Assembly: GCF_001425385.1 (NCBI RefSeq) | Contig: NZ_LMQO01000001.1 | Span: 682,001-746,000, forward strand | Source of the DNA: Sphingomonas sp. Leaf407 | GTDB taxonomy: Bacteria > Pseudomonadota > Alphaproteobacteria > Sphingomonadales > Sphingomonadaceae | DNA: 64,000 nucleotides | Direction of reading: 5' to 3' | Shown: piece by piece, positions 10,244-32,119 of the stretch | Numbering within the stretch: position 1 is the stretch's first letter | Layout of the letters: every line of letters starts with the position of its first letter | The notes under the pieces: model-generated | What the model was told of the DNA's origin: nothing | What the model saw: the letters and a program-made list of their open reading frames with translations, nothing else | Databases searched by the model: none | Position numbers and translations under genes: made by a program

Positions 10244-10930
10244 ATGTTCGTTTATCTACTCGCCATCGCGGCGGTTCAGCCCGGCTATCTCACGCCGGCG
10301 CAACGCTTGGACCTGACCGCGATCCTGCCCGGGCCGCCCCTGGCCGGCAGCGCGCGGGCCGATGCCGATGCGCGGATCTTCGCGACCGAACGCGGCGCGC
10401 CCGACGATGCGCGCTGGCGGCTGGCGGCGGTCGACGTGTCGTCGGACCTGCCCGAGCGTTTCGCCGACGCGATCGGCTTTCGGCTCGATCTGGCGCGACT
10501 GCCCGCGACGCGGCGGCTGCTCGACCGGTTCGGCAGCGACCGGTCGGCGGCGATCGGCCAGGCCAAGGCACATTGGCAGTCGCGTCGGCCGTTCGTGGCA
10601 AGCGCCGCGCCGATCTGCGAACCACGGACGGCGGCGCTGGCGGCGAACGGCGACTATCCGTCCGGCCATACCGCGCACGGCTGGGCCTTCGCGCTGGTAA
10701 TGGCGGAGCTGTTGCCCGACCGCGCGCAGCCGATCCTCGCCCGCGGGCGCAGCTATGGCGCGAGCCGCTGGATCTGCGGATCGCATTCGTGGAGCGCGGT
10801 CGAAGGCGGATACCTCGCCGCCGCCGCGATCGTCGCCCGCGACCATGGCGAGGCGGCATTTCGCGCCGACCTGCGCCGCGCCGCGCGCGAACTCGCCCGC
10901 TATCGCCGGCGGCTCAGAACCGCCAGTTGA
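10244..10930 (+). CDS. Class A (PAP2/PhoN-like) acid phosphatase with altered motif
   Basis: 228-residue secreted or periplasmic phosphatase of the PAP2 superfamily. The three active-site blocks are visible: KAHWQSRRPF, PSGHTAHGW and SRWICGSHSWSA. In class A acid phosphatases the last block is SR-x5-H-x3-D; here the His is kept but Ala replaces the Asp that normally supports it. A short hydrophobic N-terminus (MFVYLLAIAAVQP) may act as a signal. The gene is divergent from a TonB receptor and its 3' end overlaps the convergent receptor by 17 bp. Family secure; full activity uncertain because of the substitution. Confidence 0.85.
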   Translation: MFVYLLAIAAVQPGYLTPAQRLDLTAILPGPPLAGSARADADARIFATERGAPDDARWRLAAVDVSSDLPERFADAIGFRLDLARLPATRRLLDRFGSDRSAAIGQAKAHWQSRRPFVASAAPICEPRTAALAANGDYPSGHTAHGWAFALVMAELLPDRAQPILARGRSYGASRWICGSHSWSAVEGGYLAAAAIVARDHGEAAFRADLRRAARELARYRRRLRTAS

Positions 10931-13601
10931 TCGCCGCCTCAACGATGCGGCCCTGCTGGGCACGGCCGACGAAAATTTCACCGGCGGGGGCGCGGACCTC
11001 ACCGCCGATCGCATCGCCTTGCATCACCGCGATCGCATCGAACAAGTTGGTCGCGCGCAGTCGCAGCGTCAGTTCGTCCCGCAACCGCCAGCGCGCGCCG
11101 ATGTCGATCAGTGCGAACGGCGGCAGCGGCAAGGTGTTGGCATCGTCGGCATAGCGCCGCCCCATCGCCGTCGCATCGAGGTCGAGGGTGATCGGCAGGC
11201 CCGGCACGTCGCCGACCAGTCCGATGCGGGCCATCGCATAGGGCACCCGACGCGGGGTCCGCCCGCTCAGATCGGTACGGACGACCGTGCCGTCGATCTG
11301 TTCGTCGACGCGATAGTCGATCAGTCGCGGGTCCTGCAGCGTCGCGGCCAGGTCTATCCCGATCGACGGTGCCACCCGCCAGTGCGCATCAATCTCCACG
11401 CCGATCGTCCGCGCCCGTGCCCCGGTCCGGTCGGGGACGATCGCACCGCTGTGCGGATGGACGACCAGCGTGTCGATCGCGATCCGGGCGAAGCGGCTGG
11501 CGAACAGCGTCGCATCCACCGACACCCCCGCGGTCCGCCACAACAGGCCCAGTTCCTGCTGGTCGACCTGCGTCGTGCGGCGGGGGTCGGCATCGGCGCT
11601 GCGGAACAGGCCGGGGTCGGGCATCCGTGTCGCCCGCGTCGCCCGCGCGAACAGGCCGATCGTAGGGGTCGCGCGCCAGTGCAGCGCCGCCGTCGCGCTC
11701 CCCCCGGCGACCCGCGCACGGGCCGGCCGGGTCTGCCCAGATGGTACGACCAGCGCATCGTCGGCGATCGTCGCGGGATCGCCCCCATCGATCCGGACGG
11801 GCTGCGCGATCGTGGCGTTCATCGTCAGCCATTCGTGACGCAGCCCGGTGTCGAGGCGCAGGTGCGGCGTCAGGTTCCATTCGTCGGCGGCGAACAGCGC
11901 GGCCGTCCGCTGCCACGCGTCGATCGCCTCATAGGTGCTGCCGCGGCTGAGCAGGCCATGGTCGGTCAGACTGCCGATCGTCCGCCCGTCGCCGTCGATC
12001 GCCACCAGATCGAGCAGCCGCCCCTGGCCCCGCGCCTCGACCAATGCCCGCGCCACCGCCCGCGCAAACCGCCAGCGATAGGCGACGCCGTAGCCGCCGA
12101 ACGTCAGGTCATGCCGCCCGGCGAGATCGACGGTGCGGGTGGCGGTCATCTCGCCGATCGTTTCGCGCAGGCGAACATCGGCGGCGACGGGGTTGATCGT
12201 CTCCACCAGATCATTGCCGGGCAGCGCCGCGAACGGACTGCCGTCGACCGTCCGGCGCAGCGCGACGCCAGCCAGCGCCGGAAAGGTGGCCGCAAGCCGT
12301 GGCACGGCGGCATCGAGCACGGCCCGCGCGCTTTGCGGCACGCCCGAGGTCGACAGCGCATAGCGGTTGGTCCGCGACATTCGCTGTCGCCCGCGCCACG
12401 TGACGCGCCAGTCGCCGACCGGCAGCACCATCGTCGCCGTCGCCGCGACCAGCCGATTGCGATTGTTGCGCGCAACCGGACGCACCCCCAGCGCCGCGAA
12501 ATCGACCCGCGCCAGGTCGGGGCCGAACCACGAATCCTGCCGTGGATCGAACCCCGGCAACGGCGTCACCTTCGTCCCGATGCGGCGCAGCGGGAGCGAG
12601 GAGACGTTCAGCGTGTCGTCGTCGAGCAGCCGTACCGCCAGCGTCAGCCGGCCGTCGCTGCCGATCGGGCGGTCGGCGCGAAGCCGCGCCTGCCATCCGC
12701 CCAGCGTCGTCGCGATCCGCCGGACCCCCGGATCGCGCGACACGCCGCCGCCCGCGATCACCGACCAACGGCCGATCCCGGCGTTGCGATAGCCCTCCAG
12801 CCGCAGCAGCCCGCGATCATTGGCCGTCACCCGCGCCGCGCCGCCGCCACCGGCCGTTGGCGCACGGGTACGAAGGTTCAGGATGCCCCCCGGCGCGTTG
12901 CTCGCGAAGATGGCCGACGGCCCCCCGCGCACATAATCGGCGCTGTCGATCATCAGGTCGGGGCGGACGAACTGGTCGATGTCGCTCCACGGCAGCGTGT
13001 CGTGCTGCACCGGCAATCCATCCTCCTGCACCGCCAGCGCCTGATACCCGTCGAGTGGCAGGCCACGCACCCGGACGGTATTGGCGGCGGTGCCGGCCGA
13101 TGGATCGACCCACAGCCCGGGCACCGTCGCCAGCACCTCGGCCAGACTGTCGGGTTGCCGCCGGGCAAACGAGTCGGCATCGATATGCGTCGCGGAATAG
13201 CTGCGATCCTGTGCCGGCCGTGCGGTGACGCCCCGCCGCCCGGTGACGACGATGTCGGCCACGACCGGAACATCGCCGGGACCGGATGGAGCTGCCGCCA
13301 ATCGCAACCGCTGTGGCGGTGGCACGGCGGCGGCGCGGACGACGATACCATGCGCCTCGCGCCGGCAATCGAGCCGCGCCGCGCCGCACCACCGCGCCAG
13401 CGCCCGCGACAACGCCATCCGCCCTTTCAACGGCGGGCCGGTGCGCCCCGCCAGATCCTGCGGCCGCGCGACCAGCGGCTGGTCGGCGCTGCGCGCGATC
13501 GCCCGTAACCCCGGTCCCGCCGGCCCGCGCGGCAGGTCGACGACGATGACCGGATCGTCGGGCGCGGCGATCCCCACCAGCAGCGCGATCAGCGGCACCA
13601 T
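10914..13601 (-). CDS. TonB-dependent receptor with N-terminal STN-like domain
   Basis: About 895-residue receptor when started at the ATG at 13601, which opens directly on a hydrophobic signal (MVPLIALLVGIAAP). An in-frame ATG at 13670 is an alternative, and neither has a clear ribosome-binding site. Residues about 20-95 look like a secretin/TonB short N-terminal (STN) signalling domain (VVDLPRGPAGPGLRAIARSA). A TonB-box-like DIVVTGRR and a plug with VRVRGLPLDGYQALAV and AIFASNAPGGILNLRTR follow; the barrel ends AINWRF. The organisation matches FecA-type transducing receptors, but no sigma or FecR gene adjoins it. Confidence 0.9.
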   Translation of the reverse strand: MVPLIALLVGIAAPDDPVIVVDLPRGPAGPGLRAIARSADQPLVARPQDLAGRTGPPLKGRMALSRALARWCGAARLDCRREAHGIVVRAAAVPPPQRLRLAAAPSGPGDVPVVADIVVTGRRGVTARPAQDRSYSATHIDADSFARRQPDSLAEVLATVPGLWVDPSAGTAANTVRVRGLPLDGYQALAVQEDGLPVQHDTLPWSDIDQFVRPDLMIDSADYVRGGPSAIFASNAPGGILNLRTRAPTAGGGGAARVTANDRGLLRLEGYRNAGIGRWSVIAGGGVSRDPGVRRIATTLGGWQARLRADRPIGSDGRLTLAVRLLDDDTLNVSSLPLRRIGTKVTPLPGFDPRQDSWFGPDLARVDFAALGVRPVARNNRNRLVAATATMVLPVGDWRVTWRGRQRMSRTNRYALSTSGVPQSARAVLDAAVPRLAATFPALAGVALRRTVDGSPFAALPGNDLVETINPVAADVRLRETIGEMTATRTVDLAGRHDLTFGGYGVAYRWRFARAVARALVEARGQGRLLDLVAIDGDGRTIGSLTDHGLLSRGSTYEAIDAWQRTAALFAADEWNLTPHLRLDTGLRHEWLTMNATIAQPVRIDGGDPATIADDALVVPSGQTRPARARVAGGSATAALHWRATPTIGLFARATRATRMPDPGLFRSADADPRRTTQVDQQELGLLWRTAGVSVDATLFASRFARIAIDTLVVHPHSGAIVPDRTGARARTIGVEIDAHWRVAPSIGIDLAATLQDPRLIDYRVDEQIDGTVVRTDLSGRTPRRVPYAMARIGLVGDVPGLPITLDLDATAMGRRYADDANTLPLPPFALIDIGARWRLRDELTLRLRATNLFDAIAVMQGDAIGGEVRAPAGEIFVGRAQQGRIVEAAINWRF

Positions 13602-13755
13602 CGTCCCCGCCCGTCCATTCCCGATCGTCCGTCGCCCTGCATCGCGCGGCGGCGCATAGCGCCGGATCATTACGCCGGTATGGCGTCGGGCCAGATTTCG
13701 ATCGAGGCCGAACCGGGCGGCCGGACCATCCCGGAGCGCCGATCGTTCACCGTCG

Positions 13756-14847
13756 ATGCCCATCGTCCCCGAACCCGCAAGTGATTCGCGCACCGGATGG
13801 CGGCCACGCCGCCTCCTCCTCACCCGCGCGGCACGGGCGTTCGCCCATGGTCGCGCCATTGCCGAACGGGCGGCGGCGATCGGCGGGATCGAGATTGTCG
13901 AATTGCCGGGCGACCGCCTCTCGCTCGACCTGCCCGACGATCCCCGCCGCGCCTATGCCGCCGCCAAGTCGACGCTCGCGGTTGTCGTCGCGCCGCCGTC
14001 GAAACGCCGGCTGCAACCGATCGCGCCGAGCGCCGACTGGAGGGTCGACCTTGCCGAAGGATGCCCGGCACATTGCGGCTATTGCTATCTTGCCGGATCG
14101 TTGAAGGGGCCGCCGATCACCCGCGTCTATGCCAATCTCGACGAGATACTGGCCGTCCTGCCGGACCATATGGGGCAGGGGACGATCACCTCGCGCGACC
14201 GGCACCGCGCGCACGAAGGCACCACGTTCGAGGCATCCTGCTATACCGATCCGCTGGCGCTGGAGCCGATCACCGGTTCGCTGTCGGCGACGATCGCGTG
14301 GTTCGGCCGGTGGCAGGCGCCGGTGCAACTGCGCTTCACCACCAAGTTCGCCGACGTCGCGCCGCTGCTGGCCATCGACCACGGCGGCCGTACCCGGATG
14401 CGGGCGTCGATCAACCCGCGCGCCTTCGCCCGGTTCGAGGGCGGCACGTCGCCGGTCGCGGCGCGGCTTGCCGGGCTGCGGCGGATGGCGCTGGCGGGAT
14501 ACCCGGTCGGGCTCACGATCGCGCCGATCCTCGCCATGCCGGGCTGGCGCGAGGCCTATGGCGCGCTGATCGACGATGCCGCCGCCGCGCTTGGCGGAAT
14601 CGCCGATCTCGACCTGACCATCGAACTCATCACCCATCGCTTCAACGCCGGATCGAAGGCGGTGCTGGAGCGCTGGTATCCCGGCTCGGCGCTCGACATG
14701 ACGATGATCGGTCGCACCACCAAAACCACGAAGTTCGGCACCGAGAAACAGGTGTATGATCCGGCGACGATGCGGTCGCTGCGCGGCTTCTTCGAGGAAC
14801 GGATCGCGGCCGCGCTGCCGGCGGCGCGCGTCCTCTACTGGACATGA
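13756..14847 (+). CDS. Spore-photoproduct-lyase-family radical SAM protein
   Basis: 363-residue protein related to SplB, the radical SAM DNA repair enzyme that reverses spore photoproduct. The iron-sulfur motif is CPAHCGYC with Cys103, Cys107 and Cys110, i.e. the C-x3-C-x2-C spacing, followed by YLAGS. Conserved stretches include ITSRDRHRAHEGTTFEAS, YTDPLALEPITGSL and TTKFADVAPLL. The host shows no sign of sporulating, so the substrate is probably another lesion or a different nucleic-acid modification. The gene overlaps the next phosphoesterase by 4 bp (ATGA), implying joint function. Family assignment firm, substrate unknown. Confidence 0.88.
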   Translation: MPIVPEPASDSRTGWRPRRLLLTRAARAFAHGRAIAERAAAIGGIEIVELPGDRLSLDLPDDPRRAYAAAKSTLAVVVAPPSKRRLQPIAPSADWRVDLAEGCPAHCGYCYLAGSLKGPPITRVYANLDEILAVLPDHMGQGTITSRDRHRAHEGTTFEASCYTDPLALEPITGSLSATIAWFGRWQAPVQLRFTTKFADVAPLLAIDHGGRTRMRASINPRAFARFEGGTSPVAARLAGLRRMALAGYPVGLTIAPILAMPGWREAYGALIDDAAAALGGIADLDLTIELITHRFNAGSKAVLERWYPGSALDMTMIGRTTKTTKFGTEKQVYDPATMRSLRGFFEERIAAALPAARVLYWT

Positions 14848-15341
14848 CGGTCTTCTTCACCGCCGACACCCATTTCGGCGATCACCGGACGATCAATATC
14901 CAGCGCCGCCCGTTCGACAGCGTCGCCGCGATGGATGCGTGCCTCATCGAACGGTGGAACGCCGTCGTCGCGCCCGACGATAGCGTGTGGCATCTGGGCG
15001 ACGTCGCCCGCCGTCCGGCCGACGTCCCCGGACTGCTCGCCCGGCTGCACGGCACCAAACACCTGCTGCGCGGCAACAACGATCCCGACGCGACCACCGC
15101 CGCTACCGGCTGGGCCAGCGTCGGCGACTATGCCGAGATCGCGGTCGACGGCCACGCGCTGGTCCTGTGCCATTATCCGTTCCGAAGCTGGCATGGGCAG
15201 CACAAGCGCGCGATCAATCTTCACGGGCACAGCCATGGCCGGCTGAAGCCGTTGCTGCGCCAGTTCGACGTCGGTGTCGATGTCCATGGTTTTGCCCCGG
15301 TCACGCTGGCGACGTTGCTCGCGACCCGCCCGGCGCTATGA
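14844..15341 (+). CDS. Small calcineurin-like metallophosphoesterase
   Basis: 165-residue single-domain phosphoesterase. All metal-binding blocks are visible: DTHFGDHR, GDVAR, GNND, a lone HYP and HGHSHGRLK. Members of this short family act on phosphoesters in the cytoplasm; no signal peptide is present. It is translationally coupled to the spore-photoproduct-lyase-like gene, so a role in nucleotide or DNA-end processing after repair is possible but inferred. The gene converges on apbE, 12 bp apart. Confidence 0.88.
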   Translation: MTVFFTADTHFGDHRTINIQRRPFDSVAAMDACLIERWNAVVAPDDSVWHLGDVARRPADVPGLLARLHGTKHLLRGNNDPDATTAATGWASVGDYAEIAVDGHALVLCHYPFRSWHGQHKRAINLHGHSHGRLKPLLRQFDVGVDVHGFAPVTLATLLATRPAL

Positions 15342-15353
15342 CGCGACGATCCG

Positions 15354-16298
15354 CTACGCCAGCATCGCCGCGAATGCGGGGGTAAGGGTTTCGCGCAGAT
15401 CGTCCCCGTCGCGCACCACGATCCGGGCGGCGATGCGCATCGCCGCGATCAGCCGGTCGTCGGGCCATGCGATGGTGATCGCGGTCGCCAGCGCATCGGC
15501 AAGCGCGGCGGTGGCGGCGATGACGCTCACCGCCGCCACGCCATTGGTGGCAGGATGACCGCTGCGCGGATCGATCGAGTGCCGTCCGCGCCGATAGTCG
15601 CCCGAGGTCGCCACCGCGTACTGATGCAGCGCGACGCGGATCGGGGGCAGGGCGATGCCGGGCGGGTCTTCAAGGTCGACCCACCACGGATCGCCATCGG
15701 GGCGCAGGCCACGCCCGACCAGTTCGCCGCCGATCTCGACGAGGCAATGGCGGATGCCATGGCCGGCGAGACAATCGGCGACGGCATCGACTGCATGCCC
15801 CTTGGCGACACCCGACAGGTCGAGCGCCAGTCCGCCGGGTTGGCGCAGGCGCCGCCCGGCGGCGTCCCATCGCAACCGCCGCCATCCCGAACCGGCGCGC
15901 GCTGCCGCGATGGCCGCTCCGCCGGGCGAGGGTTGCGGCCCCGGCGGGCCGAACCCCCACAGGTCGACGAGATGCCCGATCGCCGGATCGAACGCGCCGC
16001 CGCTCGCATGGGCGATCCGCAGCGACAGGTCGATCACCGCCGCGAAATCGTTCGGTAGTTCGACGATCGCGCCAGCAGGCGACGCATTGAAGCGACACAG
16101 CGTCGACGTGCCGTCCCAATGGCTCATCTGTCCAACGAGGTCATCGAGACGGGTGTCGATCGCGCGCCGTATCGCTGCCGGATCGGCTTCCTCGGGCAGC
16201 GCGCAGCGCACGCTCCAGCCGGTGCCCATCGTCCGTCCGGTCAGCGTCACCACCGACGCGCACGGATTATGCGTTACCAGCATCGCCGCGTCGGGCAT
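15354..16298 (-). CDS. apbE: FAD:protein FMN transferase ApbE
   Basis: 314-residue ApbE-family enzyme that moves FMN from FAD onto a Thr or Ser of a target protein. Visible family motifs are GRTMGTGWSV, the FAD-binding DLSGVAKGHAVDAV, VEIGGELVGRG, the metal-site region ATSGDYRRGRHSIDPRSGHP and ADALATAITI. It has no lipobox or obvious signal peptide, although ApbE often works in the periplasm, so localisation is unclear. It is the last gene of a four-gene operon after PepSY, DUF2271 and DUF4198 genes; the DUF2271 protein contains a fitting FMN-attachment motif. Confidence 0.92.
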   Translation of the reverse strand: MPDAAMLVTHNPCASVVTLTGRTMGTGWSVRCALPEEADPAAIRRAIDTRLDDLVGQMSHWDGTSTLCRFNASPAGAIVELPNDFAAVIDLSLRIAHASGGAFDPAIGHLVDLWGFGPPGPQPSPGGAAIAAARAGSGWRRLRWDAAGRRLRQPGGLALDLSGVAKGHAVDAVADCLAGHGIRHCLVEIGGELVGRGLRPDGDPWWVDLEDPPGIALPPIRVALHQYAVATSGDYRRGRHSIDPRSGHPATNGVAAVSVIAATAALADALATAITIAWPDDRLIAAMRIAARIVVRDGDDLRETLTPAFAAMLA

Positions 16299-16327
16299 GA
16301 CCGGCAGCGCGATGCGCGGGAGCGGGG

Positions 16328-17173
16328 TCAGGGCGTCATCACCTCCAGCGTGGTGACATAGCCCATCCGCCGTGCCGTAGCGCGCGGCACGGTGGGCTTC
16401 GCATCGTCATGGGTGGCGTTCAGCCAGTACATGCCCGCCTGCGGCCAATCGAGAGCCAGCACCCCGTCCGCGCCGGTGGTGAGTTCGCGCGCACCCTCGG
16501 CATTGCGATAGCGTTTGCCGCCGGGCACCACCGTGACCTTCAGCCCCGGCGCGGGCCTGCCGTCGATCAGGAAGCGGAACCGCGCGGTTTCGCCCGCGAC
16601 CAGTTCGTCGGGATGGGTGAGGTAATCGATCTCCAGCCCCTTGCCCACGGGCTTCAGCACGGCACGGGTCGGCTCGCCCGCCGTCACGAAAATCTCGTTG
16701 CGGTTGCTCGTTTCGGTCAGCGTCACGTCGGTTGCATTGGCGGGAATGTCGGCGACGGTCAGCGGCGGGCGGCGCACGCCGTCCGGCCCCGGCGGGCCAC
16801 CGCGTCCACCGACGCGCTTCTCCTCGCCGTTCACCTTGAAGCTGCCCATCAGCCCCGACATCTCGGTCCCGATCTTCCACGTACCCGGCTTGTCGAGCTT
16901 CACGTCGAACACCGAGCGATAGCGGCCGGTCGCGCCGTTCTGCACCTGTCCGGCGGTGCCGTCGGGTTGCCAGACCTTGACCCCGTCGAGGCGGCCGGGC
17001 TGGTGATCGGCGTAGAACAGGTCGTTCGACGCGGCGAAATCGACTGTGACCCAGCTATCGGTGCCCGAAAACACCGTGCCCGACGGCAGCAGCCACAGGC
17101 GGTGCGCGGACACGCCGGCGGGGATCAACAGGAGAACGGCGGCGGCGAGCAGGCGCCGGGCGAAACGGGGCAT
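16328..17173 (-). CDS. DUF4198-domain periplasmic protein
   Basis: 281-residue exported protein. A Sec signal peptide (RRLLAAAVLLLIPAGVSAHR) cleaves after AHA-like VSA, and the mature part starts HRLWLLPSGTVFSG, characteristic of DUF4198 (NikM-like/CbiK-associated) proteins. A C-terminal segment, GETARFRFLIDGRPAPGLKV, resembles an Ig-like carrier domain. The start at 17173 places the signal peptide at the N-terminus; the longer open frame adds unlikely residues. DUF4198 proteins are linked to metal uptake and here lie between DUF2271 and ApbE genes, supporting a role in a flavin-based metal reduction or uptake system. Confidence 0.82.
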   Translation of the reverse strand: MPRFARRLLAAAVLLLIPAGVSAHRLWLLPSGTVFSGTDSWVTVDFAASNDLFYADHQPGRLDGVKVWQPDGTAGQVQNGATGRYRSVFDVKLDKPGTWKIGTEMSGLMGSFKVNGEEKRVGGRGGPPGPDGVRRPPLTVADIPANATDVTLTETSNRNEIFVTAGEPTRAVLKPVGKGLEIDYLTHPDELVAGETARFRFLIDGRPAPGLKVTVVPGGKRYRNAEGARELTTGADGVLALDWPQAGMYWLNATHDDAKPTVPRATARRMGYVTTLEVMTP

Positions 17174-17195: not shown

Positions 17196-17684
17196 TCAGC
17201 GGGCGGCGATGGTGACGGCACCCAGTTCGTGCGATCCGCTGGCGCGGGCCGCCTTGGCGGGTATGGTCAGCGGCACCTGCACCAGTTCGCGGCCGCCGGT
17301 TTCGCGCGCCGCCTCGACGTTCAGCACATAGGGGCCGGGGCGAAGGTCGGCCGGCAGCGGGATGCTGTGGGTGCCCGGTGCGCGGGTCGCGCCGCTGATC
17401 CCGTCGGCGGGCAGGCGCAGGCTGCGTCCGCCCTTGCGCCACCACGCCCGCAGATCGGCCAGCCATTTGGTCCCCGGTTCCGCCCCGGTCTTGCGGACAT
17501 CATACCACAGCGCCAGCGTGCGCGGCGCGCCGCCACCGGCGGGTTCGATCCAGATCGCGACATAGGGGCGGTGATATTCGGCGACCGACAGGCGCGGGAT
17601 GGTGACGCTGACCGTTCCGGTCGGCGGCGCGGGCGCGGCGGCGACGGTGGCACTGCCCAGCACCGCGAGGGAAAGGATACGCAT
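17196..17684 (-). CDS. DUF2271 protein with flavinylation motif
   Basis: 162-residue exported protein. The N-terminus is a short signal peptide (MRILSLAVLGSATVAAAP). The body is DUF2271-like (HRPYVAIWIEPAGGG, LALWYDVRKTGAEPG). Residues 94-100 read DGISGAT, matching the ApbE target motif Dxx(S/T)GA(T/S), so Thr100 is the expected FMN attachment site. ApbE is encoded two genes downstream in the same operon and a PepSY membrane protein upstream. The likely role is an extracytoplasmic flavoprotein passing electrons, perhaps to ferric iron; motif seen, function inferred. Confidence 0.82.
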   Translation of the reverse strand: MRILSLAVLGSATVAAAPAPPTGTVSVTIPRLSVAEYHRPYVAIWIEPAGGGAPRTLALWYDVRKTGAEPGTKWLADLRAWWRKGGRSLRLPADGISGATRAPGTHSIPLPADLRPGPYVLNVEAARETGGRELVQVPLTIPAKAARASGSHELGAVTIAAR

Positions 17685-18373: not shown

Positions 18374-18477
18374 CTACCCCTCTGCACCGCAATTACTGCG
18401 ACCTATTATCATTAGCAAGCGGTGATACAGGGTTGTTTGGCGGCTACAGCCGACCGGATGGCGTCGGTCGTCGCTCG

Positions 18478-29900: not shown

Positions 29901-31973
29901 TCACGCCAGCGTACGCACGCCGGGTTCGCGGGCATAGAAGCGCCGCGCCGCCGCAGCGACGAAATCGTCCTCCACCCCGACGATCCCGTCGTCGGGTTCG
30001 ACGCCGGCCTTGTCCAGCAACGGTTTCGCGCCCGCACTCGCGCCGATCGCCTTGAGGTGGCCGAAGGCGTCCATGACGAACTGCACCGCCGCCGCTTCCT
30101 TCAACAGCGTGCGACAGCCTTCATCGGACACGATCACCGCGACCGCGTCGAAGATTTGGCTCGGAGTGCCGGCGAGTTGGCCGTCGGCCTTGCGCTTCGA
30201 TCCGTCGGCCAGCGTCGCGCCGCCGACCTTGGGCGCGACCAGAACCGGCTTGCCCTTCGCCGCCTTGACCGCCGCGACCAGCGTGTCGATCGCCGCGCCG
30301 TCGCTGCCGTCGGTGAACAGGATGCCGACGCTGCGTCCTTCCAGCGTCGTCTTCATGTTCTTGTGGATCGACAGCGCGTCGGACGGCGCCATGTCCACCG
30401 GCTCGCGCGCCGCTGCCGCCTTGTCCGGCAGGTCGATACCGAGGCCGTCGGCGACGCGCTTCGCCAGATCCTCGTCGACGTTGCGCAGGTTCGCGACCAT
30501 CCGCGGCGGCACCTGATCGAGCACACCGACCTTCGACAGTTCGAACACGAACGACGATGCGATATGCGCCTGCTCGCTCTCCGTCTGCGAACGATAGAAC
30601 AGCCGCGCCTGGCTGTAGTGATCGGCGAACAGCTCGGCCCGGACGCGCAGCTTGTCGCCCTGTTCGTCGGGACCGGTCGCCGCGTTCACCGTGGCGAAAC
30701 CGCGCTCGATGCTCTCACGGGGGCCGCCGTCCTCGCCATGCGCGGCAAGGCTGTTGGGTTCGTAATTGGCCCGGCCCTTGGGCACCTGCGTCTGCATCTT
30801 GCCGTCGCGCTGGAAATTGCCGAACGGGCAACGCGGCGCGTTGATCGGGATCTGGTGGAAGTTGGTCGTGCCCAGTCGCGAATTCTGCGTGTCGAGATAG
30901 CTGAACAGCCGACCCTGCAACAACGGATCGTTCGAAAAGTCGATGCCCGGCACGATGTTGGTCGGCAGGAACGCGACCTGTTCGGTTTCCGCGAAGAAAT
31001 TGTCGGGATTGCGGTTCAGCGTCAGCGTGCCGATGATGCGCACCGGCACATCGTCCTCGGGGATCAGCTTGGTCGCGTCGAGCACGTCATAGGGTTGCGC
31101 CTGGGCAAACGCTTCGTCGAACACCTGAACGCCGAGGTCCCATTGCGGAAACGCGCCGGTATCGATCGCTTCCCACAGGTCGCGACGCTGATAGTCGCTG
31201 TCGGCGGCCTGAAGCTTCAGCGCCTCGTCCCAGATCGTCGATTGCAGGCCGAGTTTCGGCTTCCAGTGGAATTTGACGAAGCTGGCCTTGCCCTCGGCGT
31301 TGACCAGTTTGAAGGTATGGACGCCGAACCCCTCCATCGTGCGGAATGAGCGGGGCAGGGTACGGTCCGACATCGCCCACATCAGCATGTGCGTCGTCTC
31401 GGGCATCAGGCTGGCCCAGTCCCAGAAGGTGTCGTGAGCGCTGCCCGCTTGCGGATAGGCGCGGTCCGCCTCCATCTTCACCGAATGGACGAGGTCGGGA
31501 AACTTGATCGCATCCTGGATGAAGAACACGGGAATGTTGTTGCCGACGAGGTCCCAGTTGCCTTCGCGCGTGTAGAATTTCACCGCGAAACCGCGCACGT
31601 CGCGCGGCGTGTCGACCGATCCCGCGCCGCCCGCGACCGTCGAGAAGCGCACGAAGACCTCGGTCTGCTCGCCCTTGGTGAATACCGCCGCCCGGCTCAG
31701 GTCCGATAGGTCGTCGGTCGCCTCGAACACGCCATGTGCGCCCGAACCGCGCGCGTGGACGATCCGCTCGGGGATGCGTTCGTGATCGAAGTGGAAGATC
31801 TTCTCGCGGAGAACGAAATCCTCCAGCAGCGTCGGTCCCCGCGCACCGGACTTCAGGCTGTTCTGGTTGTCGCTGATCGGTACGCCGTGGTTGGTGGTCA
31901 GGACGGCGTCGTCACCGGTTGCGCGCTGGTGCGTCTCGCCGCCCTTGCCGATCGCTGTGTTCGTGTCGCTCAT
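29901..31973 (-). CDS. katE: Large-subunit catalase, HPII/KatE type
   Basis: 690-residue monofunctional haem catalase that splits hydrogen peroxide. The distal histidine is in [12 protein letters not shown], the distal asparagine in [13 protein letters not shown], and the proximal haem tyrosine in [12 protein letters not shown]. After the catalase core (to about residue 500) a flavodoxin-like C-terminal domain follows ([18 protein letters not shown]), typical of the large clade-2 enzymes. The ATG at 31973 is preferred to an upstream in-frame start because homologues begin near MSDTNT. Transcribed alone, ending at a hairpin shared with the convergent gene. Confidence 0.95.
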
Positions 31974-32119
31974 GTCGATCCTTCGTTCCCCGGATGGGCT
32001 CCCCCGTCCTAACGAAGCAGCGCCGCGAAGGACCCATTCGCGAACGCTTATCAACAGCTTGCCGGCAACGGAGCGCGACACGACCCCGACGCCGGGTCTG
32101 GCGTCGGCTCACGCTTCCG

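Follow-up and report, generated by a model that had tools for sequence, protein, structure and literature searches.

The window, by which we mean the whole 64 kb stretch of DNA analyzed here, carries a minus-strand operon of four genes, transcribed in the order PepSY_TM_like_2-DUF2271-DUF4198-ApbE. Its features are:

18396..18418 (-), Fur-like box TTGCTAATGATAATAGGTCGCAG of the operon promoter, matrix score 25.8 bits
17702..18373 (-), PepSY_TM_like_2 membrane protein (PF16357, Pfam 5.9e-76)
17196..17684 (-), DUF2271 protein (PF10029, 1.3e-39), predicted to carry covalent FMN; its N-terminus resembles a signal peptide
17385..17405 (-), DGISGAT motif, residues 94-100 of the DUF2271 protein, with Thr100 as the predicted FMN site
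16328..17173 (-), DUF4198 protein with an N-terminus of exported look (PF10670, Pfam 6e-53)
15354..16298 (-), ApbE, FAD:protein FMN transferase (PF02424, Pfam 6.5e-67)

All four genes score well over the Pfam cut-offs; the 162-aa DUF2271 ORF, for instance, reaches 135.5 bits for PF10029, where the cut-off is 27.3, and ApbE has 226.3 bits for PF02424. The nearest solved structure to ApbE is 5mgy (E 1.1e-44, spanning residues 16-311). The first-pass annotation of this DNA had placed an ApbE and a PepSY membrane protein in the operon of the DUF2271 gene, which the Pfam matches to PF02424 and PF16357 confirm; the DUF4198 gene is a member that it had not mentioned. The PF16357 protein sits inside a flavinylation gene cluster, and this assigns the locus to the PepSY-like flavinylation systems, which are defined by a PF16357 or PF03929 protein in such a cluster. 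In the genome (nine contigs, completeness given as 100), ApbE, DUF2271 and PF16357 are each matched once. Of the possible ApbE targets, which also include NqrB/RnfD, DUF3570 and others, the profile search covered DUF2271 and FMN_bind and returned no match for FMN_bind. Phage homologs were searched for and none were found. Among named relatives, those nearest to the DUF2271 protein come from Sphingomonas, with identity of up to 91%. One record, "Bacillus sp. 2B10," encodes a DUF2271 protein that is 88% identical, within a Sphingomonas-like operon; this assembly is probably mislabeled or contaminated. Between the operon and a TonB receptor gene stands a plus-strand pair, a spore-photoproduct-lyase-like gene (13756-14847) overlapping a metallophosphatase gene (14844-15341).

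The D-x-x-[ST]-G-A-[ST] motif occurs in a single copy in the DUF2271 protein, as DGISGAT, with the Thr100 codon (ACC) at 17387-17385. By chance, D..[ST]GA[ST] arose in 122 of 100,000 shuffles of this protein, and a scan of every stop-to-stop frame of the 64 kb window with a length of 100 aa or more found it once, a count that applies to the window. The initial annotation had read DGISGAT at residues 94-100 as a fit to the ApbE target motif, which proved correct, and had raised the question of whether the motif is conserved in close homologs. Among 80 named relatives, [ST]GA[ST] is kept in 79 and the motif-final Thr in all 80, while 78 possess an ApbE match in the same locus (here and below, any ApbE match within the fetched locus, about 6 kb on each side). 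Since the named relatives were retrieved with six seed peptides, and PADGISGA, one of the six, biases them, an HMM-drawn sample provides the fairer test of conservation. The domain was located with a window-seeded profile built on trimmed domains; 16 of the 89 HMM-drawn regions, nine above the Pfam cut-off and seven below, were dropped as this profile missed the domain, and 73 were kept, four of them below the cut-off. T or S ends the motif in 70 of these 73 loci, and strict [ST]GA[ST] is present in 34. The other 39 carry variants such as SGPT, SSAT, SRPT or TQPT, and 25 of them keep ApbE, either elsewhere in the locus or fused to DUF2271. As Thr is retained and GA drifts with ApbE still present, the target of ApbE in DUF2271 seems, from these alignments, wider than [ST]GA[ST]. 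In a DUF2271 group further removed, from which five loci were scored and similar ones dropped, the motif reads [DN]G[IL][ST]GAS, with ApbE about 2.3 kb off and no PepSY match of the PF16357 kind.

The structure of the DUF2271 protein was also considered as a source of functional clues and set aside. Its model is a beta-sandwich (pLDDT 71.3), and the matches to it (best Z 6.2, rmsd 4.0, 105 aligned) are generic folds of this type that say nothing about function; the best Foldseek E-value was 0.011, and the sequence gave two chance-level matches to PDB chains (E 0.36 and 0.66).

ApbE and DUF2271 co-occur across genomes. ApbE is present in 65/65 DUF2271-containing genomes versus 226/333 others among 398 genomes of the phylum (Fisher 1.6e-10), and within the same order in 9/9 versus 1/13, figures that come from lists compared by eye, with DUF2271 counted over the cut-off and ancestry and completeness ignored. 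Natural fusions of DUF2271 with ApbE, which we take to be the family designated COG1477, were seen in seven loci. In Pseudoalteromonas, the PepSY protein runs directly on into a DUF2271 domain with DGVTGAT, thus placing the flavin domain beside the end of the last helix. The partnership with PepSY is looser in the HMM-drawn sample, where 20 of the 73 DUF2271 genes are not preceded by a PepSY gene of this kind. DUF2271 fusions with PF16357 and with COG1477 have likewise been described in Alteromonas, where those of A. macleodii (MASE_17435 and MASE_18630) are induced by iron limitation; there the domains are fused in one protein, whereas the sphingomonad operon encodes them as separate genes (PMC7190382).

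These data bear on whether DUF2271 is modified at all. The retention of Thr where GA is replaced would also fit a structural role for this residue; DUF2271 could then be unflavinylated and ApbE, which seemingly lacks a signal peptide (see below), could serve another, cytosolic target. We regard this as very unlikely. The motif occurs only once in the window, the genome contains no FMN_bind protein (with other target types lying outside that search), and ApbE-DUF2271 fusions exist. Furthermore, flavinylation of DUF2271 by ApbE has been demonstrated with a Thr-to-Ala control, and covalent FMN is in print for the DUF2271 protein of Amantichitinum ursilacus (Meheust et al., 2021; PMC8238504). The proposal made from the sequence at first reading, that Thr100 is a likely covalent FMN site, is supported and agrees with these published data on the same domain.

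The AlphaFold2 model of the PepSY protein (pLDDT 83.6) contains three helices (residues 25-61, 169-197 and 201-222), with the PepSY domain placed between the first and the second. Among the 135 PF16357 proteins compared, the window's included, His37 and His162 are invariant, while His60 is kept in 130 and His196 in 115; the C-terminal His223 is found in all 124 proteins, again counting that of the window, which extend that far. Judging from the helix ends and the charged loops, His37 and His196 would lie near the cytosolic face and His60 and His162 near the periplasmic face. A PepSY-like protein of Pseudomonas has two haem sites with two histidines each (PMC11334425), and the histidine pairs fit this layout, with haem predicted. 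The PepSY protein therefore probably carries electrons as a b-type protein with two haems. Comparison of structures was less informative: FoxB was absent among the matches listed in the fold searches with this model, the best of which reached Z 5.5 (rmsd 4.2, 74 aligned), Foldseek returned no match at E <0.1, and a sequence search of the PDB, taken to E 1, gave none either. The PepSY domain and paired histidines are common to the operon's protein and the FoxB and HiuB reductases, yet unlike these, the PF16357 protein is a three-helix protein paired with a flavoprotein. For Alteromonas, it was proposed that the PepSY protein acts as a siderophore permease (PMC7190382), to which the flavoprotein would be an accessory. 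We consider such a role extremely unlikely here, as the model has only three helices, the histidines are positioned as in a cytochrome, and the related PepSY protein HiuB is described as a FoxB-like reductase (PMC13001220).

As for the source of electrons to the predicted PepSY carrier, the operon contains no NAD(P)H reductase gene. In many relatives, a fifth gene encodes a flavodoxin/NAD-binding reductase (PF00258, PF00175), and a homolog of it lies in the locus in 28/80 named and 44/89 HMM-drawn cases. None was found in the 42 loci of the closest relatives (L004-L045), two of which, L023 and L026, break off too shortly past ApbE to be informative. The two matches to this reductase in the genome fall in one 864-aa frame (C1:1358151-1359530; L242), which, with domains assigned by eye, appears to fuse PepSY-type helices with a reductase; it may be a second ferric reductase or an electron donor. 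Candidate donors for the chain are quinol, the 864-aa PepSY-reductase protein or another reductase.

The link to iron starts at the promoter. The Fur-like box at 18396-18418 (-) lies directly upstream of the PepSY gene and is the best site of the window. The matrix was derived from promoters of sphingomonad orthologs (33 loci used, 28 sites of at least 9 bits kept, window excluded); with it, the next-best site of the window scores 18.8 bits, and the maxima of ten shuffled windows, which preserve base content only and not dinucleotides, range from 8.3 to 18.3. The Fur-like box of the operon promoter, a candidate Fur site, is common to the orthologs. The second-best site, at 32038-32060 (-), coincides with the beginning of a frame (29901-32081) that, by eye, resembles a catalase.

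Genes upstream of the operon in relatives point in the same direction. A TonB receptor gene and a gene for a PiuC-like 2OG-Fe(II) dioxygenase (PF13640) are positioned upstream on the same strand in 15/80 named loci, in 14 of them directly before the PepSY gene and in L070 with a gap, and in 6/73 HMM-drawn loci, 4 to 6 kb upstream. On two plasmids, the annotation gives receptor and PiuC-like dioxygenase ahead of the operon in that order. In the genome studied here, the pair is separate from the operon (C2:584825-587976) and is preceded by two Fur-like sites, which score 23.5 and 18.5 bits. The Fur-like box and the receptor/PiuC-like dioxygenase linkage are new support for a role in iron metabolism, drawn from genomic sequence. 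A FeoB_N match was also found, in a 641-aa frame at C5:219356. The TonB receptor of the window itself (10914-13859, -) was examined as a partner and is not counted as such, because it is unlike the operon-linked receptor of locus L004 (BLASTP E 7e-4, 23% over 157 residues) and no Fur-like site above 6 bits precedes it at 13701-14100. By eye, it has an N-terminal extension resembling a signaling (STN) domain.

A close known counterpart is the Caulobacter crescentus operon CC3059-3063 (CCNA_03155-03159), which has the identical order of transporter (PepSY), DUF2271, DUF4198 and ApbE genes; its fifth gene, encoding a sulfite-reductase-like flavoprotein, is missing from the sphingomonad operon (PMC3751524; PMC11870441). 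The Caulobacter operon is Fur-repressed and its promoter binds Fur in gel shift (PMC3751524), and insertions in it lower fitness in EDTA (PMC11870441). Flavinylated DUF2271 could nevertheless pass electrons to something other than iron, e.g., a different metal, an oxidoreductase of the periplasm or a sink for oxidative stress. The operon encodes no acceptor, 65/80 named loci do not show the upstream TonB receptor-PiuC pair, and a 2026 paper describes a PepSY_TM protein supporting heme-copper oxidoreductase function (PMC13038864). Against this stand the Fur-like box at the operon promoter, the receptor-dioxygenase linkage in relatives and the published Caulobacter data, and we find a non-iron acceptor unlikely. 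Iron as the acceptor agrees with the first-pass suggestion of an extracytoplasmic electron-transfer chain, perhaps for iron reduction, which is supported here and agrees with the published systems (PMC8238504; PMC3751524).

One feature fits less easily with this picture, namely the compartment of ApbE. The DUF2271 protein has a signal-peptide-like N-terminus (MRILSLAVLGSATVAAA; hydrophobicity 2.10 over 12 residues). For ApbE, two starts were considered. The ATG at 16298 drops LTPLPRIALPV, which matches the conserved start of ApbE proteins, while the CTG at 16331, which overlaps the DUF4198 stop codon as CTGA, restores the RIALP N-terminus; judged from sequence, it may be the true start, giving a gene at 15354-16331 (-). 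Under either start, inspection by eye and hydrophobicity reveal no signal-like or lipobox N-terminus. A motif of the form [RHN][VILM][LAV][VIL]P precedes the domain in 92 of the 127 stand-alone ApbE proteins of DUF2271 loci, among which only that of locus L152 has, by eye, a clear lipoprotein-type signal. Two annotated plasmid ApbE genes begin exactly at the motif (VRIVLPP and VRRVLIPP); the annotated ApbE of Acidovorax has a longer start, without the conserved motif and without a clear signal. In the ApbE-DUF2271 fusions, the start is hydrophobic in 7/7 cases. Hydrophobicity of at least 1.8 is reached by 10/127 stand-alone ApbE versus 88/137 DUF2271 N-termini; at a threshold of at least 1.3, 133/137 DUF2271 N-termini pass, and the ApbE of the window scores 1.57. 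Because hydrophobicity separates the two groups poorly, the case for a missing signal leans on the conserved start and the two annotated starts. On these grounds, a signal peptide seems to be missing from the ApbE of the operon, as it does from most of the corresponding enzymes in related loci. With ApbE seemingly signal-less and its target signal-bearing, enzyme and target may fail to come together in the periplasm.

ApbE is typically periplasmic and membrane-anchored, as stated in a review (PMC12052999), which also describes a cytoplasmic ApbE of Klebsiella that serves a soluble fumarate reductase. The Klebsiella enzyme has no signal peptide, as seems to be the case for the ApbE of the operon; its target is soluble, whereas DUF2271 has a signal-peptide-like N-terminus. 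Genes without a predicted signal were excluded from the first survey of Meheust et al. (2021; PMC8238504), whose passages on signal peptides do not mention signal-less ApbE in such clusters. The ApbE tested there is called signal-peptide-truncated, so that ApbE/DUF2271 pair may differ from the one encoded here. In the parts of the literature consulted (PMC8238504; PMC12052999; PMC11334425), we found no account plainly dealing with a signal-less ApbE and an exported target. Flavinylation before export would explain this combination. We tentatively suggest, as a possibility that we do not favor strongly, that in alpha- and betaproteobacterial PepSY/DUF2271/DUF4198 operons the DUF2271 precursor receives its FMN in the cytosol, from an ApbE that has no signal peptide but a conserved N-terminus of its own (about R-[VI]-[LA]-[VIL]-P), and is then exported by Sec with the flavin in place. 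The apparent compartment mismatch is the one unusual feature of the system and the one lead worth following.

Taken as a whole, the locus is, in our judgment, likely to be a sphingomonad member of the PepSY-like flavinylation systems, in which FMN on Thr100 of DUF2271 and a PepSY electron relay serve periplasmic iron reduction under Fur control. Using FAD, ApbE would load Thr100 of DUF2271, an exported protein, with FMN. The two histidine pairs of the PepSY protein would hold one haem near each membrane face, and electrons drawn either from the quinone pool or from a reductase in the cytosol would pass through this protein outwards to the FMN. The FMN-bearing DUF2271 protein would in turn reduce ferric iron or ferri-siderophores in the periplasm, the resulting Fe(II) would be taken over by FeoB, and Fur would repress the operon when iron is plentiful. 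Gene content, the motif and its conservation, co-occurrence, the conserved histidines and the Fur-like box are established by this analysis; flavinylation of DUF2271 at the motif, as well as Fur binding and the iron response of the Caulobacter operon, are in print for relatives. The first-pass annotation was right in what it observed, and the mechanism that it proposed is very probably right as well.

By 2021, systems of this kind had already been published, as had the modification of DUF2271 and the suggested role in iron: PepSY/DUF2271/DUF4198/ApbE clusters were put forward for iron reduction, and the sphingomonad operon shares with them PF16357, DUF2271, DUF4198 and ApbE as well as the [ST]GA[ST] motif (Meheust et al., 2021; PMC8238504). 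The present locus adds a sphingomonad example, and its promoter box and the receptor linkage strengthen the role in iron. If flavinylation before export proves true, these bacteria would not have to supply their periplasm with FAD.
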